Origin: an uncultured Tateyamaria sp.
GTDB taxonomy: Bacteria; Pseudomonadota; Alphaproteobacteria; Rhodobacterales; Rhodobacteraceae
Assembly (NCBI RefSeq): GCF_947488715.1
Contig: NZ_CANLAG010000005.1
Coordinates: forward strand, 124,001 to 188,000
DNA: 64,000 nt
Direction: 5' to 3'
Shown piece by piece: positions 1 to 11,399 of this stretch (positions within the stretch are counted from its first letter, which is position 1; the number at the start of each line of letters is the position of its first letter). The notes below the pieces were generated by a model. It was not told where the DNA came from and ran no database searches. It worked only from the letters and a program-made list of their open reading frames with translations. The position numbers and the translations under genes are program-made.

Positions 1-940
1 CGGACCGGGGGGAGGTCACGCAGGACCGCGTCGTGACCAGCCGGTGATCGTCGGCCCAGTTGGCCCAATACCCGGCCATCGACGCAGGCCCGAGGCGGTC
101 ATAGCTGTTCACGGTCATCGCCAGCAGGGCGGCCAGCCCTTCGTGGTGGTGGATCAGCCCGGCCATGCAGCCACGCGCCACATCCGACAACTGCCCGTCG
201 GGCGCGATGACATTGCCACCCTGCGCGTCCTCGAAGCTGAAGTTGATATGCAGGCCGGATCCGCCCCGATCGGGGATCGGTTTGGGCAGGAAGGTCAGCA
301 ACAGGTCCATGTCCGCCGCCACCTCGCGGGCCATTGTCTTGAACAGGAACGCGCCGTCGCAGGCGGCGAGTGCGTCGTCGAACTGCATGGTCAGCTCGAA
401 TTGGCCGTTGTCATATTCGCCGTTCATCGATTCGATGCGCAGACCAACCTCTTCTGCCGTGGCCCAGAGGGCGTTCATCAATCCGGCGGGATCGTTCTGC
501 GGGCCGGTGCCGTACACAAAGGCGCCGGGCGTGTCATAGGGCTCCCACACGCCATCGGTGCCTTGCTGGAACACATAAGCCTCCATCTCCAGTCCGACCT
601 TGGGCGTCAGCCCGCGTGCCTGCCACGCGGCCACGGTGGCCTGAAGCCGCCCGCGCGCGCATAGGCCAAAGGGCGCGCCGTCCGCGTGCAGGGTACCAAG
701 GGCGATGTCGGTGTCCTGTTGCCAGTCGGGGTGCCGCGCCTCGTCCAGCACAAGCTCCATGTCGGGGATGCCGTCAAAGACGCCCGCGCCCGGCACGGGG
801 ATCAGGTCGCGGTCAAAGGTGGTGCCGAACACACCGCGGGCAAAGCCGACCTTGCCCCCCGCGGCCACGTCCGATGGCACGTATTTGCCGCGCGGCAGGT
901 TCAACAGATCGCAAAACAGGGTGCGGGTGCGTGTGGTCAT
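1..940 (-). CDS. Glutamine-synthetase-family ligase (gamma-glutamyl-amide synthetase type), C-terminus cut by window edge
   Basis: About 313 residues are visible and the rest lies beyond the left edge. The frame carries glutamine synthetase signatures: the metal-binding EME near residues 118-120, NGEYDNGQFEL near 173-183 and GSGLHINFSF near 228-237. The start is the ATG 5 nt after the P450 stop. The family joins glutamate to ammonia or another amine with ATP. A glutamine amidotransferase and a P450 sit directly upstream in the same operon, which favours a specialised gamma-glutamyl-amide synthetase (as in polyamine, aniline or isopropylamine catabolism) over housekeeping GlnA. The family assignment is firm; the substrate is unknown. 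Confidence 0.85.
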   Translation of the reverse strand, partial: MTTRTRTLFCDLLNLPRGKYVPSDVAAGGKVGFARGVFGTTFDRDLIPVPGAGVFDGIPDMELVLDEARHPDWQQDTDIALGTLHADGAPFGLCARGRLQATVAAWQARGLTPKVGLEMEAYVFQQGTDGVWEPYDTPGAFVYGTGPQNDPAGLMNALWATAEEVGLRIESMNGEYDNGQFELTMQFDDALAACDGAFLFKTMAREVAADMDLLLTFLPKPIPDRGGSGLHINFSFEDAQGGNVIAPDGQLSDVARGCMAGLIHHHEGLAALLAMTVNSYDRLGPASMAGYWANWADDHRLVTTRSCVTSPRS

Positions 941-945
941 ATCGG

Positions 946-2166
946 TCACTTCAGCGTTGGGCGCAGGGTCAGCGATTTGACCCCGCAGATGAAATTGGAT
1001 CGGGTCCAGGTCGGCTCTGACACCGCGTCGAGCCGGGTGATGCGGCCTGCCAGTTCTTGCAGGATGCACCGCAATTCGAGTTTGGCAAGCCACATGCCAA
1101 GGCAGACATGCGGCCCGCCCTGTCCAAAGGCGAGGTGGCGGTTCGGGCTTCGGTCCAGTTGCGCGCTGTGCGGGTTGTCGAACACCGTCTCGTCGCGGCT
1201 GCCGGAGGCGAACCACATCAGCACCTTGTCGCCCGCGCGGATGGTCTGGCCGTGCAGGTCGATGTCGCGCGTTGCCGTGCGGCGGAAATGCAGGGTGGGC
1301 GAGGCGAGGCGGATGATCTCGTCCGCGCAGGTGTCCCAGACCTTGCCCGTTTGCAGCTGCGCCAGCAGGTCCGGTTGCCGTGTCATGAGGTGCAGCGCCA
1401 TCGCGATGGAATAGCGGGTCGTGTCGTTTCCGGCGGCCACCAGCAGGCAAAAGAAGTTCTTGAAGTCCTGCGGCGTCATCGCGCCGTCCTCGCTGCGCAG
1501 CACGCGGGCGAGGATGCCGTCGCCGTCCACTTGCCGCGAGCCATCCAAGATCGTGTCGGCATAGTCATAAAGCTCGACCCCCGCAGGCGACCGGAACGGC
1601 ATCATGCGGTAGGCGTCGGTGTCGACCTTGTCGATCACGGTGGTGGTAAAGTCGGGGTCCGTGTTCCCGATCAGCGCGTCGCCCCGTTCCACCAGCCAGT
1701 CGAGGTCATCCTCGGGCACGCCGAGGATGCGGCCCAGCATCAGCATCGGCAGCCGCTTGGCGATCAGGTCGATGCCGTCGAATTCCGCATGGTCCAGCGC
1801 CTGACCGACGATGTCGCGGGCCAGCTCCTGGATCAGCGGTTCGAACCGGGCGATGACGGGCTTGGCAAAGACGGGATTGACAGCGCGGCGGGTGCTGGAA
1901 TGTTCGGGCGGGTCAGTTTCCTGAAAGGTGCGGCGCGACATGTATTCGTCGTGGCTTTGGTCCTCGATCCGGATGCCCTGTGCGCTGGAGAATGTCGCGG
2001 GGTCCTTTTGCGCGGCCATGATGTCGGCATAGCGGGTGAGCGACCAGAACCCCTTGTTCCCGGCAAAGGCGTCCGTCCAGTGCACCGGCGCGTCGCGGCG
2101 CATTTGCGTGAACGTGTCGTGGGGGATGCCATCCACAAAGCTGTCGTGATCGGCGAGGTTTTTCAT
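946..2166 (-). CDS. Cytochrome P450 monooxygenase
   Basis: A 406-residue soluble bacterial P450. Visible motifs are the I-helix AGNDTT (residues 245-250), the K-helix ExxR as EIIR (283-286) and the haem loop FGQGGPHVCLG with Cys355 as thiolate ligand. No membrane anchor is seen, so it is probably a class I enzyme fed by a ferredoxin and reductase, neither of which is visible in the window. The ATG at 2166 overlaps the amidotransferase stop as ATGA, which fixes the start. It lies between the amidotransferase and the GS-like ligase, so its substrate may be a gamma-glutamyl amide or the free amine. That substrate is inference. Confidence 0.93.
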   Translation of the reverse strand: MKNLADHDSFVDGIPHDTFTQMRRDAPVHWTDAFAGNKGFWSLTRYADIMAAQKDPATFSSAQGIRIEDQSHDEYMSRRTFQETDPPEHSSTRRAVNPVFAKPVIARFEPLIQELARDIVGQALDHAEFDGIDLIAKRLPMLMLGRILGVPEDDLDWLVERGDALIGNTDPDFTTTVIDKVDTDAYRMMPFRSPAGVELYDYADTILDGSRQVDGDGILARVLRSEDGAMTPQDFKNFFCLLVAAGNDTTRYSIAMALHLMTRQPDLLAQLQTGKVWDTCADEIIRLASPTLHFRRTATRDIDLHGQTIRAGDKVLMWFASGSRDETVFDNPHSAQLDRSPNRHLAFGQGGPHVCLGMWLAKLELRCILQELAGRITRLDAVSEPTWTRSNFICGVKSLTLRPTLK

Positions 2167-2876
2167 GGGGTGCCTCCGAAAAAACGGGTGGCCCATTGGG
2201 CGAATGTGCTGCCATGTGTGGGCGTGGCAAGTGTGGCTTTGGCTGCTGCGACCTCTTCGGCGGCAAGGTGCGGCGCGGTCTCGTCTAGAACGCAGCGCAT
2301 GAAGGGATCGGTGAATTCCGGGTGCGCCTGCGTGGTCAGGATATGCGTGCCCTTGGTGAACCCGGCGATGGCGCATTTGGGGGACTGCGCGTATGCGCTG
2401 CACCCGTCGGGCAAGGCTGTCACGGCATCGTGGTGAAACTGGTAGAGGTTCAGCGCCTGCGTCTGTGGCTGCATATAGGGATGTTGCGCCGTCAGTTCGA
2501 TCTGGTCGATCCCGATATTCCAGTCCTGACGCGCGACCTGCCCACCCAGTGCCATGGCGATCGCCTGATGGCCGAAACAGGCCCCAAGCAGCGGCTTGCC
2601 CGCCGCATCGCAGGCGCGGATGAAATCGTATAGCGCGGGCAAAAAGGGCAGTTCTTCCAGCACGCTCAGCGGCGAGCCGGTGATCAGGAATGCGTCCTGT
2701 TCGTCCACGCTGGTAGGCACCTCGCCACCGATTGTCATGTAGACGCGGTAGGTGAACCGTTGATCCTGCGCATCGAACAGGTCGCGGAACCGGTGGCTGT
2801 CGTCGGGAAAGGCATCACCGATGGGTGATTTGTCGTGGTTGACCTGGAGCAGACCGAGTTTGAGGCGTTGGGTCAT
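2163..2876 (-). CDS. Class I glutamine amidotransferase-like hydrolase
   Basis: A 237-residue stand-alone GATase1 domain. The nucleophile elbow GACFGHQ holds Cys100, and AHPEF supplies His185 and Glu187, so the triad is intact. Enzymes of this kind cut gamma-glutamyl amides or supply ammonia. Linked to a GS-like ligase and an oxygenase it resembles the amidotransferase-like partner in aniline gamma-glutamylation clusters. It overlaps the P450 by 4 nt and follows tctC after 141 nt. Whether it hydrolyses a gamma-glutamyl product or recycles glutamine cannot be told from the sequence. Confidence 0.88.
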   Translation of the reverse strand: MTQRLKLGLLQVNHDKSPIGDAFPDDSHRFRDLFDAQDQRFTYRVYMTIGGEVPTSVDEQDAFLITGSPLSVLEELPFLPALYDFIRACDAAGKPLLGACFGHQAIAMALGGQVARQDWNIGIDQIELTAQHPYMQPQTQALNLYQFHHDAVTALPDGCSAYAQSPKCAIAGFTKGTHILTTQAHPEFTDPFMRCVLDETAPHLAAEEVAAAKATLATPTHGSTFAQWATRFFGGTP

Positions 2877-3017: not shown

Positions 3018-3950
3018 TCACCGACCCAGGATCGCGTTGATCTCGGCGGATTTCTCACGATCCGTTGCGATCCGTGCCTCGGCCTCGGCCTGACCCTGCC
3101 AGTAGACGGCGGCTCCGGTCTCGGCCATCAGGGCCTGTGCTTCGTCCGATGCCATGGTCTTGGCGGCGACTTCGGCGATGGTGTCGATGACCTCCTGCGG
3201 CGTGCCCTTGGTCACGAACAGGCCGTTCCACAGCTCGATGTCGTTGACACCAGACTGCGACGCCACCGTTTCCACACCGTCGAGCTTGGCAATCGGGTTG
3301 GCGCCGATATTGCCCAGCACGTTGATGTCACCCAGGCAGGGTTCGATCAGCGCGAGCGTCGTGTTGATCACATCGGCATCGCCCGAAGACAGCGTATTGC
3401 AGTCCAGCAAATCGAACGCGCTGTCGTCGGCAAATTCAAAGTCCATCTTGACCGCTGCTGCCATCGACACGGCGGTGGGCGTCAGGCCCGCGCCAAAGTG
3501 GCCCAGCACGACGTCGTTGTCCTGCGCATAGGCCGCCAGTTCTGCCATGTTGGAATAAGGCGCATCGCCTGATGCGGCCAGCACGAACGGGTAGGTCAGA
3601 AAGATGCCCACGGGGACGAAACTGTCCTCTTCGATGCCGATGTCGATCTTGGGGCCGACGATGGGCACACCGATCACGAAAGACCCGATGACCGACCCGT
3701 CATTTGGCGCGTTCAGCACCTCGAGCGCGCCGGGGAAGGGTCCATCGCCGCCGCCGGGGCGGTTCACGACGGACGCAGGCTGGCCCGTGGCCTCGGCCAT
3801 GTCGGCGGCGATCATGCGCGTCAGGATGTCCTCGAAATCACCCGGAGGCCACGGCACGATGAACTGCACGGGGCCTGTGGGGTACTCTGCCAGCGCGGGG
3901 CCGGTCAGGGCAGCCAGGGCAAAGGCTGCGGTGGTCAAAAGCTTTTTCAT
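3018..3950 (-). CDS. tctC: Tripartite tricarboxylate transporter substrate-binding protein
   Basis: A 310-residue TctC/Bug-type periplasmic binding protein. A signal peptide with a KK start and a cleavage near ALA-EYP precedes the typical beginning of the mature domain, YPTGPVQFIVPWPPG, and a VVNRPGGG segment follows. A GGGAGAG ribosome site precedes the ATG. It delivers a solute, often a carboxylate, to TctAB. It is the last transporter gene here, after tctB and tctA, with a 34-nt gap to tctA. The ligand cannot be named; the operon suggests an amine- or carboxylate-containing compound. Confidence 0.9.
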   Translation of the reverse strand: MKKLLTTAAFALAALTGPALAEYPTGPVQFIVPWPPGDFEDILTRMIAADMAEATGQPASVVNRPGGGDGPFPGALEVLNAPNDGSVIGSFVIGVPIVGPKIDIGIEEDSFVPVGIFLTYPFVLAASGDAPYSNMAELAAYAQDNDVVLGHFGAGLTPTAVSMAAAVKMDFEFADDSAFDLLDCNTLSSGDADVINTTLALIEPCLGDINVLGNIGANPIAKLDGVETVASQSGVNDIELWNGLFVTKGTPQEVIDTIAEVAAKTMASDEAQALMAETGAAVYWQGQAEAEARIATDREKSAEINAILGR

Positions 3951-3984: not shown

Positions 3985-5475
3985 TCAGTGTTCGAACCGT
4001 CTGGTGCGAACGGTGGTGATGATCGTGACGGCGATCACGATCAGGATCACGACAAAGAGCGTCCCGGCCACGGGCCGGTTCACGATGTCGAAAACGGTTT
4101 TGATCTGGCCTGCGCCCGCCGTCAGCTTGTCGATCATGATCGACCCCAGCACGAGGCCCAGCACCACGGGCACCAAGGGCCAGTCGAGCCGCCGCAGGAT
4201 ATAGCCGACATAGCCGAACCCGGCGGCAAACATGCAGTCGGTAAAGGAATTGCGGATCGAAAAGACGCCGACAAAGGCGAGGATCAGGATGAACGCGCCC
4301 AGAAGGCGGTTGGGGATATAGATGATGCGCGTGATCGCGCGGGTCGAGATCAGCAGCGTCATGAGCACCAGCACGTTGATCAGCAAGAGCGCGATAAAGA
4401 GTGAGAACAGAAAATCCGAGTTGTTCTCGAAAATATCCGGCCCCGGTTTGATCCCTGCGTCAAAGAACACGACCATCATCATCGCGGTCAGCGCCTCGCC
4501 CGGCACACCCAGCGCCAGCAGGGGCACCATCGCGGCGGCGGGGACGGCGTTGTTGCTGGCCTCGGACGCGATCAGCCCGTCCGGCGCGCCGCGCCCGAAC
4601 TGGCCGGGGTTTTTCGAGATCGCGCGCGCCGTGGAATAGCTGAAGAATTGCGCCACGAACTCGCCCACGCCGGGGATGATGCCCATCACCGTGCCGTAGC
4701 CTGCGCTGCAAAAGGCCACGACCGGGTGTTTGCGCAACTCGCCAAAGCCCCGCAAGAGGCCGCCCCTGATCCGCGCCTCGGGCGGGTCCGCATCCTTGCC
4801 CGTTAGCAGGAACAGCGCCTGGCTGATGGCAAAAATGCCGACGATCACCACGATCAGGTTGAAACCGGGATAGAGGTATTCGATGTCGAACGTATAGCGG
4901 TCGATCTGCCGCGTCGTCTGCCGCCCGACCAGCGCAATCAGGAACCCCAGCCCAAAGAGCAGCGCGGCCAGGCCCATCGTCTTGCGATGCGCGGCAATCA
5001 GCAGGACAGCCCCCAGAACGGCGGCCATAAAGATATCCCGCTGACCAAAGAGCGCACCGAGATCGCGCAGGTAGGGGCCAAAGACCATCAGCGCGGTCAG
5101 CCCCAGCAGGATCGAGAAACACCCGCCAAAGAACGACGCGGCATAGGCCAGCGACAGCCCGCGCGCGGCCTCGCCCCGTCGGGTCATGGCATAGCCGTCA
5201 TAGGTGGTCAGCGCATTGACCGGCGTGCCGGGCGTGTTGATCAGGATCGCGGGGATGGCCCCGCCATACATCGATGACCCATAGACTCCGAGCAGCAGGA
5301 CCAGCGACACCAGATCATCCAGAAACACGGTGGCGGGCAGCAGGATGGCGATGGCGATGGCCGGGCCGATCCCCGGCACCGCCCCAATCGCCAAGCCACC
5401 CACCGACCCGATCAGGATCGCGATCAGCACGGGCCAGCTGGCAAGGTTGTCGAGACCGGCCCAGAACGCCTCCAT
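3985..5475 (-). CDS. tctA: Tripartite tricarboxylate transporter, large membrane subunit
   Basis: About 496 residues with roughly a dozen hydrophobic segments. TctA-family hallmarks are the glycine-rich GAVPGIGPAIAIAILLP near the N-terminus, its second-half counterpart GIIPGVGEFVAQFFSY, and the GGAIPAILINTPGTP loop. I prefer the ATG at 5475, whose A is shared with the tctB stop (TGATG); a GTG three codons upstream (5484) is the alternative. It forms the ion-coupled channel with TctB in the inner membrane. Confidence 0.92.
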   Translation of the reverse strand: MEAFWAGLDNLASWPVLIAILIGSVGGLAIGAVPGIGPAIAIAILLPATVFLDDLVSLVLLLGVYGSSMYGGAIPAILINTPGTPVNALTTYDGYAMTRRGEAARGLSLAYAASFFGGCFSILLGLTALMVFGPYLRDLGALFGQRDIFMAAVLGAVLLIAAHRKTMGLAALLFGLGFLIALVGRQTTRQIDRYTFDIEYLYPGFNLIVVIVGIFAISQALFLLTGKDADPPEARIRGGLLRGFGELRKHPVVAFCSAGYGTVMGIIPGVGEFVAQFFSYSTARAISKNPGQFGRGAPDGLIASEASNNAVPAAAMVPLLALGVPGEALTAMMMVVFFDAGIKPGPDIFENNSDFLFSLFIALLLINVLVLMTLLISTRAITRIIYIPNRLLGAFILILAFVGVFSIRNSFTDCMFAAGFGYVGYILRRLDWPLVPVVLGLVLGSIMIDKLTAGAGQIKTVFDIVNRPVAGTLFVVILIVIAVTIITTVRTRRFEH

Positions 5476-6215
5476 CAGAACCACACCTGCATGAAGGTCT
5501 CGAGCCGTTGGGGCAGCTGGTCATAGAGCCAGATATTCACGGGCGTGCGGATTTGTAGGCCCGTGCGGAACACCAGCACAATCGCGAAACTGGCGGCAAG
5601 GCAGATGCCCATCCACCGCGCGCCGCGATAGCCCATGCGCCATGGCAGCAGCGTGCCCATCAGAAGGGTCGACACCAGATAGCCCAGCACCGGCACCAGC
5701 AGGGTGTAGCCCACGAACCAGCCCACAAATTCCAGCGCGCGCAGCCATTGCGACATCTCATAGCCCACGGCGGTGGGTTGCCCGAACCGGGTGCGCCAAC
5801 GCTGGGCGCGCCACGCGGTATGGAGGTTCCAAAGGGCCGCCGGCACCAGCACCGCAAGGCACATCAGCGGCGCGACCCACCCCTGTTTCAGGATCCGCCC
5901 CAGCCGTGCGGGCCGTTTGTCGGGCTCGGTGATCCCGAACTGGTCCATCCAGTACCGCGCCATGTTGGCGGGCAGCTTGCGGTCCTCCCATCCCGTCTGG
6001 GAAAAGAAGAAGGCGAGGAAAAACAGCGCCAGGAGCGCCATGAACAGGGAAAAGATCAGATCCCCCCGTCCGCGCCGGAAATCGGTGATGTCAGCCACGT
6101 TGATCTTTTGCGCAGGCGGCGTGGCAGAGGCAAAGCGCGGGGTCGTCGCCCGTGACCGGATCACGGCGCGCGGTGTCGCGCTGGTCAGCGCGCGAGGGGT
6201 GACCCGGCTTGTCAC
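5475..6215 (-). CDS. tctB: Tripartite tricarboxylate transporter, small membrane subunit (TctB-like)
   Basis: A 246-residue protein with about four to five membrane segments, as expected for TctB. The start is a GTG overlapping the aminotransferase stop (GTGA). The first 45 or so residues are hydrophilic, rich in Arg, Thr and Ala, and unlike a normal TctB start, so either this is a lineage-specific cytoplasmic tail or translation begins further in. It is coupled to tctA by a 1-nt overlap. TctB is poorly conserved, so the call leans on gene position and topology. Confidence 0.78.
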   Translation of the reverse strand: MTSRVTPRALTSATPRAVIRSRATTPRFASATPPAQKINVADITDFRRGRGDLIFSLFMALLALFFLAFFFSQTGWEDRKLPANMARYWMDQFGITEPDKRPARLGRILKQGWVAPLMCLAVLVPAALWNLHTAWRAQRWRTRFGQPTAVGYEMSQWLRALEFVGWFVGYTLLVPVLGYLVSTLLMGTLLPWRMGYRGARWMGICLAASFAIVLVFRTGLQIRTPVNIWLYDQLPQRLETFMQVWF

Positions 6216-7573
6216 GCGGCTCCGGACATGGCGGTCAGGCCTGCCTCGGTCGCGGACAGGATGGTCTGGATGTGGCCTGCGTCCACCACCAGCGGCGGCG
6301 AGAAGATGGCGTTGTTGCCCGACACCCGGATCATCACGCCCGCCTCATAGGCGGCCTTTTGGAACACCAGCGGCAGCGCCTTGCCCACGGGGGTTTTGGC
6401 GCTGCGGTCGCTGACCAGTTCAATGGCGCACATCAGCCCCTCGCCGCGCACGTCGCCGATCATGTCAAAGCGGTCGGCCAGCGCCTGCAGCCCGGCCTTC
6501 AACTCGGCCCCGCGGGGGGCTGCGTTTTCCCAGGGCTTTATGCGCATCGTTTCCTCGACCGCGGCGACGGCGGCGGCGGCACCAACCGGGTGACCGGAAT
6601 AGGTATAACCGGAATCGACCGACCCCGCGCCGCTCTGGTCATCCTCGAACGCGGCGGCCACGTGGTCTGCGATCATCACCGCGCCAAAGGGGAAATAGCC
6701 GTTTGTGATCGCCTTGGCGGTGCACATCAGGTCCGGCTGCACGCCCCAGTGGCGCGACCCGGTGGGGGATCCTGTGCGGCCAAAGGCGGTGATCACCTCG
6801 TCCGCGATCAGCAGCACGCCGTGTTTGTCGCAGATGTCGCGCACCATGGGCATGAAGCTGGGATGCGGCGGGATCACCCCGCCCGCGCCCTGCACCGGCT
6901 CCATCACAAAGGCGGCGATGGTGTTGGCCCCTTGGAACGCGATCTCACGCTCCAGCATGCCCGCGCTGAGGCGGGCCAACTCTGCCGGGTCGTCCGTGCC
7001 GAAGGGGTTGCGATAGAGGTAGGGGCCGGGGATGTGGAAACAGCCCGCCATCAGCGGCTCGTATGTGTTGCGGAACTTGGCGTTGCCATTCACCGACGCG
7101 CCGCCGAAATGCGTGCCGTGATAGCCCTTGTCGAGGCTGATGAACTTGGTCCGCGTGCCCTCGCCACGGATGCGGTGGTATTGCCGCGCCAGTTTCAGCG
7201 CGATCTCGATGCTGTCCGACCCACCCGAGGTGAAGAAGCTGCGGCTCATCCCGTCGGGGCCAAAGAAATCGGCAAGCAGGTAGGCCAGTTCGATCGCCTT
7301 GTCGTTCGAGGTGCCGCGAAAGGTCGAATAATAGGGCAGGGCGTCGAGCTGCTGGGCGATGGCGTCCTTGACCGGCTGGCACGAGTAACCAAGGTTCACG
7401 TTCCAGAGGCCGCCCACCGCGTCGATGCTGCGGTGCCCGTCCACATCCGTAATGTGCACCCCGTCGCCGCCCGTCAGGATCGTGGGCGGGTTGGCCATGC
7501 TGTCGGCCGGGTGCGCCATAGGGTGCCAGAACTGGCGGGCATTGTTTTCCTTGAGGAAATTGCTGTCTTTCAT
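6212..7573 (-). CDS. Class III (omega-amino-acid type) PLP aminotransferase
   Basis: A 453-residue fold-type I enzyme of the omega-amino acid:pyruvate or aspartate-aminotransferase-family group. ADEVITAFGR carries the PLP-ring Asp and CTAKAITNGYFPFGAV the Schiff-base Lys. It would move an amino group from a primary amine or omega-amino acid to pyruvate or 2-oxoglutarate and make an aldehyde, a plausible substrate for the divergent aldehyde dehydrogenase. The ATG overlaps the IclR stop (ATGA), and its own stop overlaps tctB. The exact amino donor is unknown. Confidence 0.9.
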   Translation of the reverse strand: MKDSNFLKENNARQFWHPMAHPADSMANPPTILTGGDGVHITDVDGHRSIDAVGGLWNVNLGYSCQPVKDAIAQQLDALPYYSTFRGTSNDKAIELAYLLADFFGPDGMSRSFFTSGGSDSIEIALKLARQYHRIRGEGTRTKFISLDKGYHGTHFGGASVNGNAKFRNTYEPLMAGCFHIPGPYLYRNPFGTDDPAELARLSAGMLEREIAFQGANTIAAFVMEPVQGAGGVIPPHPSFMPMVRDICDKHGVLLIADEVITAFGRTGSPTGSRHWGVQPDLMCTAKAITNGYFPFGAVMIADHVAAAFEDDQSGAGSVDSGYTYSGHPVGAAAAVAAVEETMRIKPWENAAPRGAELKAGLQALADRFDMIGDVRGEGLMCAIELVSDRSAKTPVGKALPLVFQKAAYEAGVMIRVSGNNAIFSPPLVVDAGHIQTILSATEAGLTAMSGAA

Positions 7574-8370
7574 GACGCGGCCCTTTCGTGGCTGGGGGTC
7601 CAGATGGCGTGGAGGTCTGCGGGTACGGTGCCGCCAATGGCGGCGGACAGGGCCGCACCGCTTTGCATCAACAGGCGGGCAAGGCGCGCCTCGACCTGCT
7701 TTCCGCCTCGGCTGGTGGGGTAAGCGATGGAGCAGGTCGCAACAGCGCGGCCTGCGGCATCAAAGAGTGGGATGGCGACAGAGGACACGCCAAGTCGCAA
7801 CGAATCGCGGTTACGTGCGTATCCACGTTGCGCGATTGCGGCCAGATCGCCGCGCAGGCTGTCGGGGTCCGGCGGCTGACCGCCCGGCACCCAGGTCCGT
7901 TGATCGGCGACCGCCATGTCCAGCAGATGCCGCGACGAAAACGCCAGATAGGCCATGCCCGATGACGTCGCCAACAGAGGCGGCAGGCCATAGGCGTCAA
8001 AACTCACGCGCACGGGGTGGTCGTGGTGTTCGGCGTGATAGACATCGACCAGATCAAATCCGTGCAGGCGGCTGATGTGCACCAATTCGCCTGCCGCGCG
8101 GCTCAACCGGTCGGTCTCCGCCCGGATCATCTCGACCTCTGGCACGGTGCGGGCGCGCATGCCCGCCAGCCGGGTAAGGGCCGGACCCAACCGATAGGCG
8201 CGGCTGTCTGCGTCCTGTTCCAGAAATCCCGCAGCTTCCAAAGCGACCAGATGACGGTGCACCGTCGCCTTGTCACGCCCGGTCAGGCGCTGCGCATCCG
8301 ACAGACCCAGTTGTGGCCGGGTCTCGGAAAACAGTTCGAGCAGCTTCAACGCTTTTGCAATCGTCGACAT
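7570..8370 (-). CDS. IclR-family transcriptional regulator
   Basis: A 266-residue protein: N-terminal winged helix (STIAKALKLLELFSE, then a recognition region near GRDKATVHRHLVAL) and a C-terminal IclR effector domain. The ATG at 8370 matches the family N-terminus; an in-frame start 12 codons upstream would add an atypical extension. It is the first gene of the operon it probably controls (4-nt overlap with the aminotransferase), so it is probably autoregulated. A perfect palindrome lies 54 nt upstream in the divergent promoter region. Confidence 0.92.
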   Translation of the reverse strand: MSTIAKALKLLELFSETRPQLGLSDAQRLTGRDKATVHRHLVALEAAGFLEQDADSRAYRLGPALTRLAGMRARTVPEVEMIRAETDRLSRAAGELVHISRLHGFDLVDVYHAEHHDHPVRVSFDAYGLPPLLATSSGMAYLAFSSRHLLDMAVADQRTWVPGGQPPDPDSLRGDLAAIAQRGYARNRDSLRLGVSSVAIPLFDAAGRAVATCSIAYPTSRGGKQVEARLARLLMQSGAALSAAIGGTVPADLHAIWTPSHERAAS

Positions 8371-8424
8371 GGAGATCAGCTTGACGCACCTGACAGGACC
8401 TTGCAATATATTTTTGCGTCCACA

Positions 8425-8458: not shown

Positions 8459-9970
8459 ATGACTGACCTCGCCCATAACCTGTCTGCACTGCGCTCCATG
8501 CTGGAAGATGTGGCGCAATCGGGCATCCTGAACCACATCGATGGCAAACCCGTGCCTGCGGTGTCGGGCGCATGGTTCGACACTCTGTCTCCGGTCGATG
8601 ACAGTCTGGTGGCCCGTGTCGCGCGCAGCGATGTAGCGGACGTGGACCTGGCGGCGCAGGCGGCAGCACGCGCCTTTGCGGACTGGCGCGATATGCCCGC
8701 GACGGAACGCAAACGGATCCTGCACGCCGTGGCAGATGGCATCGAGGCGCGGGCCGAAGAGATTGCGTTGTGCGAGTGTTGGGACACCGGCCAGCCGATC
8801 CGCTACATGGCCAAAGCCGCGCTGCGTGGGGCCGAGAACTTTCGCTTTTTCGCCGATCGTGCCGGGGCCGCGCGGGATGGTCAGACGCTGCCATCGCCCA
8901 GTCTGATGAACATCACCACCCGTGTGCCCATTGGTCCGGTGGCGATCATCACGCCGTGGAACACGCCGTTCATGCTGTCCACGTGGAAAATTGCGCCCGC
9001 ACTGGCGGCGGGCTGCACAGTGGTTCACAAACCGGCAGAGCTGAGCCCGTGGACGGCCCGCGTCCTGATCGACATCGCCGAAAAGGCTGGCGTTCCGCCG
9101 GGGGTCTGGAACCTGATCAACGGAATGGGCGCGGAGGCGGGCAAGGCGCTGACCACCCACCCGGATATCAAGGCCATCGCCTTTGTCGGGGATGGGGCGA
9201 CGGGGTCGGCCATCATGGCGCAAGGCGCGCCGACCTTGAAACGTGTCCACTTTGAACTGGGCGGCAAGAACCCGATCATCGTCTTTGATGACGCCGATTT
9301 CGAGCGTGCCTTGGATGCGGCGGTGTTCATGATCTATTCGCTCAATGGCGAACGCTGCACATCGTCGTCGCGCCTGTTGATCCAGGACAGCATCGCGGAT
9401 GCCTTCGAGGCCCGCGTGGCCGAACGTGCCCGTGCCATCCGTGTGGGCCACCCACTGGATCCCGCAACCGAGGTGGGGCCGCTGATCCACGCCGATCACC
9501 GCGCCAAAGTCATGGCCAGCTTTGACACCGCACGTGCCGAAGGAGCCACAATTGCCGCCGGTGGCGCGCGTGTGGGTGACGTGGGTCAATACGTGGCGCC
9601 CACGCTTTTTACCAATGCCCGCAATGACATGACCATCGCGCAGGATGAAATCTTTGGCCCGGTGCTGACGTCAATCCGGTTCGACACCGAGGACACAGCC
9701 CTGCGTCTGGCCAATGACACGGTCTATGGGCTGACCGCCTTTCTCTGGACGTCGGATGTGACGCGCGCCATGCGATTTTCGGACCGGTTGGAGGCAGGCA
9801 TGGTTTGGGTCAATTCGGCCAATGTCCGACACTTGCCCACCCCCTTTGGCGGGATGAAGGCCAGCGGCATTGGTCGCGACGGCGGCGACTGGTCCTTTGA
9901 TTTCTACATGGAGCAAAAGCACATCGGCTTTGCCACCAGTGACCCAAAGATACCGCGCCTCGGCGTGTGA
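8459..9970 (+). CDS. NAD(P)-dependent aldehyde dehydrogenase (HpaE-like)
   Basis: A 503-residue aldehyde dehydrogenase. ITPWNTPFML is the Rossmann segment, ELGGKNP carries the general-base Glu, NGERCTSSSR holds the catalytic Cys, and EIFGPV is the second conserved region. The ERCTSSSR surround recalls 5-carboxymethyl-2-hydroxymuconate semialdehyde dehydrogenase (HpaE) and related aromatic or aliphatic semialdehyde enzymes. It probably oxidises the aldehyde made by the aminotransferase or by amine oxidation. It is co-directional with the decarboxylase 31 nt downstream, divergent from the IclR operon. Confidence 0.9.
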   Translation: MTDLAHNLSALRSMLEDVAQSGILNHIDGKPVPAVSGAWFDTLSPVDDSLVARVARSDVADVDLAAQAAARAFADWRDMPATERKRILHAVADGIEARAEEIALCECWDTGQPIRYMAKAALRGAENFRFFADRAGAARDGQTLPSPSLMNITTRVPIGPVAIITPWNTPFMLSTWKIAPALAAGCTVVHKPAELSPWTARVLIDIAEKAGVPPGVWNLINGMGAEAGKALTTHPDIKAIAFVGDGATGSAIMAQGAPTLKRVHFELGGKNPIIVFDDADFERALDAAVFMIYSLNGERCTSSSRLLIQDSIADAFEARVAERARAIRVGHPLDPATEVGPLIHADHRAKVMASFDTARAEGATIAAGGARVGDVGQYVAPTLFTNARNDMTIAQDEIFGPVLTSIRFDTEDTALRLANDTVYGLTAFLWTSDVTRAMRFSDRLEAGMVWVNSANVRHLPTPFGGMKASGIGRDGGDWSFDFYMEQKHIGFATSDPKIPRLGV

Positions 9971-10001: not shown

Positions 10002-11399
10002 ATGAGCTGGGATGACTTCGCCGACCACGCCAAGGCCGCCGCCGATTGGGGTGCCGACTATCACCGGACCCTGCGGGACCGGCCCGTGCGCGCGCAAACA
10101 GCGCCCGGCGACATCGCAGCACAGCTCGACGCAACCCCGCCCGAGGACGGCACCGGCCTGGCGGACATCATGGCCGATTTCGAAACCATCGTGATGCCGG
10201 GCATCACCCATTGGCAGCACCCGCGTTTCTTCGCCTATTTCAACTCCAATGCGGCACCTGCATCCGTTCTGGCCGAGTTCCTCGCGTCGATCATCGCGCC
10301 GCAATGCATGCTCTGGCAGACGTCGCCCGCCGCGACCGAGATGGAAACGCGCATGATGGATTGGTTGCGGCAGGGGCTGGGCCTCGACCCGGCCTTTCAG
10401 GGTGTGATCCAGGACAGCGCGTCCTCTGCCACACTGGCCGCGGTGCTGACGATGCGCGAACGCGCGCTGGACTGGGCGGGCAATACGCGGGGCCTGTCGG
10501 GGCAACCGACCTTGCGGATCTACTGTTCCGACCAGGTTCACAGCTCGATTGATCGCGCCATCTGGGTGGCGGGCATCGGTCAGGACAACCTGGTCAAGAT
10601 CGCCACCACAGGCGACTTGCGCGCGATGGACCCGGCGGCGCTGCAGGACGCCATCACCCAGGACCGGGCCGCCGGATACGTGCCTGCGGGCATCATCGCC
10701 GCAACAGGCGCAACGGGTATGGGCGCCTGTGATGACCTGCAGGCCGTAGCCAGCATCGCCGCGCGCGAAAACCTCTGTTCCCATCTCGATGCCGCCTGGG
10801 CTGGAACGGCGATGATATGTCCCGAATTTCGCCCGCTGTGGGAGGGTGCGGACCAGTTCGACAGCATTGTCTTCAACCCGCACAAATGGCTTGGCGCCCA
10901 ATTCGACTGTGCGGCGCATTTCCTGCGTGATCCCGATCTGCTGCGCCAGACACTCGCCATCCGACCGGAGTACCTGAAAACCCACGCGCAGGGCGACATC
11001 ACCGACTATTCGGAATGGTCGATCCCGCTTGGACGGCGGTTCCGCGCGCTCAAATTGTGGTTCCTGATGCGCCACTACGGGATGGAGGGGCTGCGCACGC
11101 GTATCCGGAATCACGTCGCGTGGAGTCAGGCGCTCTGCCACCGTCTGGGGGCGGAGGATGACTTTGACATCGTGACCGAACCGATCCTGTCGCTCTGGAC
11201 GTTCAAGGTGGCGGGCGCGTCTGATGACGCGACGCAGCGACTGGTCGATGCGATCAACGATGACGGGCGCATCTACCTGACGCAAACGCTGGTCGACGGG
11301 CAAAAGGTCATCCGCTTTACCGCCGGGCAATTCGATTGCGAAGAACGGGATTTCGACACGGCCTTCGACACGATCACCGAGATCGCGCGCGCGCTTTAG
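10002..11399 (+). CDS. Group II PLP-dependent decarboxylase (aromatic-L-amino-acid type)
   Basis: A 465-residue protein. The family signs are HPRFFAYF, WQTSPAATEME, the HLDAAWAG motif with the PLP-contacting Asp, and FNPHKWLG with the Schiff-base Lys. Members make tyramine, phenethylamine, tryptamine or dopamine from aromatic amino acids; a few are aldehyde synthases. The start is the ATG preceded by AGGATGACAC. A source of an aromatic amine beside a gamma-glutamylation cluster and a HpaE-like dehydrogenase is suggestive but does not prove one pathway. Its stop overlaps the convergent glucokinase stop. Confidence 0.88.
   Translation: MSWDDFADHAKAAADWGADYHRTLRDRPVRAQTAPGDIAAQLDATPPEDGTGLADIMADFETIVMPGITHWQHPRFFAYFNSNAAPASVLAEFLASIIAPQCMLWQTSPAATEMETRMMDWLRQGLGLDPAFQGVIQDSASSATLAAVLTMRERALDWAGNTRGLSGQPTLRIYCSDQVHSSIDRAIWVAGIGQDNLVKIATTGDLRAMDPAALQDAITQDRAAGYVPAGIIAATGATGMGACDDLQAVASIAARENLCSHLDAAWAGTAMICPEFRPLWEGADQFDSIVFNPHKWLGAQFDCAAHFLRDPDLLRQTLAIRPEYLKTHAQGDITDYSEWSIPLGRRFRALKLWFLMRHYGMEGLRTRIRNHVAWSQALCHRLGAEDDFDIVTEPILSLWTFKVAGASDDATQRLVDAINDDGRIYLTQTLVDGQKVIRFTAGQFDCEERDFDTAFDTITEIARAL

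Follow-up and report, generated by a model that had tools for sequence, protein, structure and literature searches.

A ligase, a P450 and an amidotransferase close an operon in Tateyamaria

We analysed the left end of a 64,000-nucleotide stretch of DNA from an uncultured Tateyamaria sp. (hereafter the window), where three adjacent minus-strand genes encode a ligase of the glutamine synthetase (GS) family, a cytochrome P450 and a class I glutamine-amidotransferase-like protein. The GS-like amine ligase, a candidate gamma-glutamyl-arylethylamine synthetase, lies at 1..940 and its gene runs 328 bases further left; the window edge merely cuts a gene that is complete in the contig (L006:15672-16940) and codes for 422 aa in all (Gln-synt_C 247.6 bits, above cut-off). 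The P450 (946..2166, 406 aa; PF00067 84.9 bits, above cut-off) carries ExxR at 283, the haem-loop cysteine C355 and AGNDTT at 245. The amidotransferase, a candidate gamma-glutamyl amide hydrolase (2163..2876, 237 aa; PF00117 (GATase) 53.3 bits, above cut-off), has an intact triad of C100, H185 and E187. All three genes start with ATG and end with a stop codon; those of the amidotransferase and the P450 overlap by 4 nucleotides, and 5 nucleotides separate the P450 from the ligase. A preliminary description of this DNA had reported three intact genes with this spacing, and its coordinates and P450 and amidotransferase residues were verified. On balance we are evenly divided on whether the operon oxidises an aromatic amine in a gamma-glutamyl-dependent manner and thereby feeds the cleavage of homoprotocatechuate (3,4-dihydroxyphenylacetate), the interpretation developed below.

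The open frames to the left of the ligase converge on it, so the unit ends with the ligase. By eye, and with no family search, they encode a sugar kinase and an isomerase. The preliminary description had advised looking there for amine-catabolic genes, and the same reading by eye suggested none.

The ligase differs from true GlnA

Profile scores of the window ligase were far below the family cut-offs: 163 bits against 429.15 for TIGR00653 (GlnA), 203.4 against 469.6 for TIGR03105 (GlnT/type III ligase) and 193.8 against 650 for NF045547 (PuuA). In a tree of 30 proteins, with long branches and unsure deep joins, it formed a single clade with 18 relatives (support 100/99), separate from E. coli GlnA and the GlnA of its own genome, from GlnT-like and PuuA-like proteins and from IpuC of Paenarthrobacter aurescens TC1. 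A Stutzerimonas ligase encoded near Rieske dioxygenase genes also fell outside this clade. Grouping with GlnA, which the preliminary description had held out as contrary to its proposal, was thus not what the tree returned.

The window ligase keeps the catalytic positions compared with E. coli GlnA, namely E129, E131, E212, E220, H269, R321, R339, R355, E357 and R359. D50, Y179 and E327 (mature E. coli GlnA numbering), which we take to be the ammonia-site residues, are replaced by A, V and M. The GlnA of the same genome retains D, Y and E at these positions, and all three are also lost in PuuA and IpuC. Retained catalytic residues together with an altered ammonia site are the features by which the broad GoaS class of amine ligases is recognised. 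Judged by its residues, the window ligase is an enzyme with an amine-ligase type of active site and not a GlnA.

These data bear on the reading in which the operon is a variant of the Puu polyamine route, or in which a GS devoted to plain ammonia assimilation lies beside a P450 incidentally. The E. coli puu cluster does hold similar kinds of gene (a GS-like ligase, a gamma-glutamyl hydrolase, an aldehyde dehydrogenase and an aminotransferase), but it has the oxidase PuuB where the window has a P450, and its ligase belongs to a different clade. With the ammonia-site residues lost, the profile scores low, the clade separate and the genome already coding for its own GlnA, one GlnT-like and two PuuA-like proteins, we regard either version as highly improbable.

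The trio is conserved across genomes

Next, 295 genomes of the family, covering 294 genera, were surveyed for the ligase (E<=1e-60). It was present in 58 of them in two tiers of identity, clade A (61-100%, 12 genomes) and clade B (46-52%), with one genome (G271) carrying both. A P450 relative (E<=1e-90) accompanied it in 56 of the 58 genomes, all except G069 and G087, as against none of 22 others, these being the first 22 by handle. A scan of named genomes gave 310 related loci, of which the best 80 were analysed, 65 at about 60% identity or more (clade A) and 15 lower; this set overlaps the survey (L097 and L047, for example, share a contig, as do L100 and L050). A P450 was found in 73 of the 80 loci, 58 of the 65 in clade A and all 15 of lower identity, and in 71 it lies on the same strand less than 500 bp from the ligase, indicating that the pairing is not due to chance. 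The amidotransferase is present in 59 of the 65 clade-A loci. The preliminary description had staked its proposal on the trio recurring in other genomes, and in clade A it does.

The transporter component TctC was found in 58/65 clade-A versus 1/15 lower-identity loci. At five clade-A loci (L104, L107, L115, L116 and L124) the ligase follows TctC, and the P450 and amidotransferase are gone from the spot. This shows that these two genes can be lost or moved while the transporter and ligase stay. The genome of L115 (G145) has a P450 relative elsewhere, 24 kb off, and that of L116 (G271) has one in its clade-B cluster. Two hybrid loci, L048 and L125 (G113), combine a clade-A transporter and ligase with a clade-B-like P450, ferredoxin, GntR and amidotransferase.

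The loci are labelled Rhodobacterales, SAR116, Rhizobiaceae-group, Granulosicoccaceae and Novosphingobium. Metagenome bins, in which the labels may be wrong, account for many of them. Ligase matches occurred in 666 plasmid records, all below 60% identity, and among the 60 plasmid matches listed, identities of 47-51% were confined to Novosphingobium EMRT-2, two Tritonibacter and Ruegeria TM1040.

The operon is associated with genes for homoprotocatechuate ring cleavage

The trio ends an eight-gene minus-strand run. Its other genes encode a TctC-type substrate-binding protein (3018..3950; PF03401 55.4 bits), a TctA permease (3985..5484; PF01970 383.9 bits), a TctB-type small permease (5475..6110, with an unsettled start codon and an open frame to 6215; PF07331 30.8 bits, cut-off 29.1), a class III aminotransferase of the PRK07481 family (6212..7573; NF005683 705.3 bits, cut-off 575) and an IclR-family regulator (7570..8406, start uncertain, with an internal ATG at residue 13; PF01614 and PF09339). 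The aminotransferase, a candidate arylethylamine transaminase, was present in 32/65 clade-A loci. Carboxylates are the usual cargo of TctABC systems, and the transporter may therefore import an amino acid or an acid precursor.

Divergent from this run, on the plus strand, lie the genes for HpaE, the 5-carboxymethyl-2-hydroxymuconate semialdehyde dehydrogenase (8459..9970; TIGR02299 741.4 bits, cut-off 638.35), and for a pyridoxal-phosphate-dependent aromatic L-amino-acid decarboxylase resembling tyrosine and 3,4-dihydroxyphenylalanine (DOPA) decarboxylases (10002..11399; PF00282 313.8 bits, query from 9990). The best solved relatives of the latter are DOPA decarboxylase 7xin and tyrosine decarboxylase 6eei, and in the alignment it keeps the Tyr and His of the catalytic loop; the Tyr presumably marks a decarboxylase, where Phe would mark an aldehyde synthase. 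In six sister Tateyamaria loci (L075-L079 and L082), hpaE-hpaD is divergent from the operon where the window has hpaE-decarboxylase.

Elsewhere in the window genome, contig C1 (L065) holds hpaR, hpaE, hpaD, an hpaG-like gene and hpaH. Scores in this genome were above the cut-offs for HpaD (402.3/321.4 bits), HpaE, HpaH (378.6/351.5) and HpaR (137.4/121.2). HpaF and HpaI were unseen in L065, neither having been searched for genome-wide. The genome thus has HpaR, HpaD, HpaE, an HpaG-like protein and HpaH in common with the 4-hydroxyphenylacetate/homoprotocatechuate (Hpa) pathway. It differs in the hydroxylase HpaB, for which no match was found in the window genome, nor in 51 of the 58 ligase genomes. 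The classical Hpa pathway is not known to include a ligase, P450 or amidotransferase of this kind.

Across the survey, HpaD (TIGR02295, E<=1e-70) was detected in 50/58 ligase genomes versus 44/237 others (Fisher p 4e-22), counts that are uncorrected for phylogeny and include some incomplete genomes. Five of the eight ligase genomes without this HpaD carry a LigB-type HpaD. The protocatechuate dioxygenase PcaH, used as a control, was not enriched (37/58 vs 145/237, p 0.76), which argues that the link between ligase and HpaD does not simply mark genomes rich in aromatic genes. The decarboxylase (E<=1e-80) was likewise found in 53/58 ligase genomes versus 9/22 others, and in 21 ligase genomes it lies within 5 kb of HpaD (39/53 decarboxylase positions, one HpaD being entered per genome).

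The association is also visible in gene order. One or more of HpaD, E, F, G and H, by similarity to a reference panel, was found in 33/65 clade-A loci; among loci flanked by 9 kb or more on each side, an hpa gene was present in 23/38 of clade A and 0/8 of lower identity. In L050/L100 a single-strand cluster reads transporter-GATase-P450-GS-HpaF-HpaE-HpaD-decarboxylase-x-HpaG-HpaH, and L047/L097 are alike. Some or all of HpaF, HpaE, HpaD, HpaG-like, HpaH and the decarboxylase flank or follow the trio in L047, L050, L057 and L058 and, among others, in L084, L088-L090, L092, L094-L097, L100 and L102. In 10 of the 15 lower-identity loci, of a type found in Novosphingobium, a LigB-type extradiol dioxygenase gene stands divergent beside P450-GS, as it does in L044. 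Nine of these ten also have a gene for an HpaE-like dehydrogenase after the ligase, whereas the tenth, L153, is too short on that side to show one.

A further option is that the operon acts on another aromatic amine, such as phenylethylamine or a methoxylated tyramine, and that the P450 hydroxylates the ring differently or removes an O-methyl group. The reaction cannot be read off the nearest solved P450s, and in L043, on the Ruegeria TM1040 megaplasmid, the cluster adjoins phenylacetyl-CoA epoxidase (paa) genes. The decarboxylase nevertheless resembles tyrosine/DOPA decarboxylases, and the ring-cleavage set is of the 3,4-dihydroxyphenylacetate type, which leaves this option unlikely. L043 also adjoins an FkbM-type methyltransferase gene, likewise seen in some other clade-B loci.

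Further genes recur beside the operon. PuuC-like aldehyde dehydrogenases were seen in 24/65 clade-A loci, and in 14/65 a UPF0261 (Tm-1-like) protein adjoins either the operon or such a dehydrogenase (L049:8353-9582, L065:5536-6900). In some clade-A genomes an acyl-CoA-dehydrogenase-like protein and a protein without a Pfam or NCBIfam match recur next to the operon (L050:1049-3378, L054:5038-9372, L101, L116, L119 and L134); those of L054 are followed by a 666-aa protein that combines SRPBCC, hydrolase and TetR domains.

No ferredoxin gene lies in the operon

No ferredoxin or reductase gene was found between or beside the trio, as judged from local frames and, on the left, by eye; a reductase was not searched for genome-wide. 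In the window genome a Pdx-like ferredoxin of 43% identity is encoded on another contig (C4:360761-361066), and C3 gave one weak match. In clade B, a 2Fe-2S ferredoxin frame directly follows the ligase in 8/18 loci (L025-L042, by eye), which fits a partner of the P450. Ferredoxins of that type are rare in clade A (3/65 loci).

Several observations weigh against the proposal that the operon oxidises a gamma-glutamylated aromatic amine on the way to homoprotocatechuate, in addition to the phylogenetic caveat on the HpaD counts. The ferredoxin is coded outside the operon, and the usual cargo of its type of transporter, TctABC, is a carboxylate. Seven of the 65 clade-A loci have no P450, namely L096, at a contig edge, L122 and the five described above, and the amidotransferase was found in just 3 of the 15 lower-identity loci. 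The decarboxylase is near the ligase in only 13/65 clade-A and 0/15 lower-identity loci, and ligase and HpaD are less than 25 kb apart in only 11/50 genomes, counting one HpaD site per genome and contigs permitting. Three ligase genomes (G069, G155 and G181) have neither type of HpaD. The L044 dioxygenase, the one protein scored, reached 130.1 bits against a cut-off of 315.95 and is unrelated to HpaD; the L044 dehydrogenase reached 479 against 638.35, and since both are under the family cut-offs, their substrates may differ.

The remaining points of this kind concern how homoprotocatechuate arises in genomes without the ligase. HpaD is present in 44/237 of these, which indicates that it has other feeders. 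HpaB was also not found in 36 of these 44, and we therefore dropped its absence as sole proof that the P450 replaces it. The flavin p-hydroxyphenylacetate 3-hydroxylase (NF045920) was tried as an alternative feeder in all 44 ligase-free HpaD genomes and 36 ligase-bearing ones, and gave a match in 1/80 at E<=1e-60, below cut-off. In G020 (L069, G020:C22), the order hpaR-hpaE-hpaD-decarboxylase-hpaG-hpaH occurs with no ligase or P450 match. Judging from this genome, another feeder of the homoprotocatechuate pathway probably exists; its hpa genes and decarboxylase may be supplied by DOPA or by some other source.

The G020 arrangement opens the way to a different role for the P450, that of an oxidative deaminase. 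The catechol would then be preformed, as in L-DOPA or dopamine, and the enzyme would hydroxylate a gamma-glutamyl arylethylamine at the carbon adjacent to its amide nitrogen. The resulting carbinolamide would break down to an arylacetaldehyde and glutamine, with the amidotransferase acting as a glutaminase. A catecholic substrate such as DOPA may indeed enter with no need for ring hydroxylation where decarboxylase and HpaD are paired in this way, and the PuuC-like aldehyde dehydrogenases of clade A would suit an aldehyde product. However, the operon already has a class III aminotransferase able to deaminate, and the extradiol dioxygenase adjoining P450-GS in the Novosphingobium-type loci points to the P450 as the catechol maker. 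We therefore consider oxidative deamination rather unlikely.

Comparison with known pathways

The preliminary description knew of no characterised example with a P450, and here it was incomplete: Ipu isopropylamine clusters (P. aurescens TC1 plasmid pTC1; Pseudomonas KIE171) already combine, like the window, a GS-like ligase, a P450 and a class I amidotransferase. On pTC1, genes for an amidotransferase, a P450, a ferredoxin, a reductase and IpuC stand in a row. As outlined in the part of PMC6776027 consulted, the isopropylamine route involves IpuC, a multicomponent P450 and a postulated removal of the tag by the amidotransferase. Two further papers (PMC10041152 and PMC5064897), in the parts available to us, contained no link to the window operon. 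The portion of PMC4103551 seen names an IpuC in Roseobacter litoralis, for which no connection with the window-ligase clade could be established.

An Ipu-like route for an aliphatic or alicyclic amine would explain the trio itself, given the shared order GATase-P450-(ferredoxin-reductase)-ligase in TC1 and the P450 step in the consulted part of PMC6776027; the hpa and decarboxylase genes would then be neighbours with no common substrate. Identity to the Ipu ligase, P450 and amidotransferase is however only 28-30% (29% for the ligase), and the tree, in which deep joins are unsure, showed no grouping with IpuC. The Ipu system carries its own ferredoxin and reductase, unlike the window cluster, and no hpa, amino-acid decarboxylase or TctABC genes are annotated in a 45-kb stretch of TC1, whereas the window cluster has genes of these kinds. 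With HpaD strongly associated and PcaH not at all, we hold an aliphatic or alicyclic substrate to be quite improbable.

The tagged amine proposed here has a counterpart in cofactor synthesis. MfnD, of methanofuran/methylofuran synthesis, is a tyramine-glutamate ligase that makes gamma-glutamyl-tyramine; it differs from the window ligase in serving synthesis rather than breakdown and in having an unrelated ligase fold. The term gamma-glutamyl-tyramine turns up in connection with methanofuran-type cofactors in PMC11365854 and PMC8141765.

In aromatic amine breakdown, AtdA1 (aniline) and NpaA1 (1-naphthylamine) are GS-like glutamyl organic amide synthetases, according to the part of PMC11335346 consulted; that paper also describes a 15th sequence motif for the GoaS class. 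Their pathways resemble the window in pairing a GS-like ligase with an amidotransferase-like protein, but use a Rieske dioxygenase where the window has a P450, converting aniline to catechol. A GS gene beside a P450 is also found in pip/mor-type clusters for N-heterocycles (Mycobacterium, Gulosibacter), which differ from the window in that cyclic amines are the substrates and ferredoxin and reductase genes adjoin the P450. In Gulosibacter, the GS genes are numbered next to two P450 genes (pipA/bioI) and GS is tied to nitrogen assimilation (PMC9477822, in the part seen).

A proposed route from tyramine to homoprotocatechuate

The idea of the preliminary description that the operon tags an amine with glutamate, hydroxylates it and releases the product gained from the finding that the ligase is not GlnA and that the trio is conserved; what it missed was the link to aromatic ring cleavage through the hpa genes and the decarboxylase. 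With that link included, we infer the following reactions, substrates and order. The decarboxylase would convert tyrosine to tyramine, or tyramine would be imported. The GS-like ligase would use ATP to join tyramine to the gamma-carboxyl of glutamate, and the P450, with a ferredoxin coded elsewhere, would introduce a ring hydroxyl into the gamma-glutamyl amide, giving a catechol. Hydrolysis of the amide by the amidotransferase-like enzyme would then release dopamine and glutamate, and dopamine would be taken to 3,4-dihydroxyphenylacetate by the class III aminotransferase together with an aldehyde dehydrogenase, for ring opening and degradation by HpaD, E, F, G and H. Tyramine is favoured because no simpler substrate becomes a homoprotocatechuate precursor through exactly one hydroxylation of its ring. 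Phaeobacter DSM 17395 is described as respiring tyramine and CIP 105210 as unable to do so (PMC4148982).

The tag-P450-untag logic is already known, and these comparisons suggest that the new part is the destination of the operon, namely tyramine-type amines and the hpa pathway. No description of a gamma-glutamyl breakdown route for such amines was found among the open-licence papers listed, judged from titles and abstract openings. More tentatively, with the balance tilting slightly to the negative, we propose that bacteria of several proteobacterial orders cap tyramine, hydroxylate it by P450 as the gamma-glutamyl amide, uncap it to dopamine and mineralise it via homoprotocatechuate, this route replacing the flavin hydroxylase HpaB and the ligases forming a hitherto undescribed branch of the glutamyl organic amide synthetases.

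If true, this would give a widespread unnamed gene set a concrete, testable chemistry and explain how catechols are formed in some HpaB-less genomes with homoprotocatechuate ring-cleavage genes. It would also offer a candidate enzymatic route from tyramine to a protected dopamine. Glutamyl tagging coupled to P450 oxidation would then serve the breakdown of natural aromatic amines, and not of pollutants alone.

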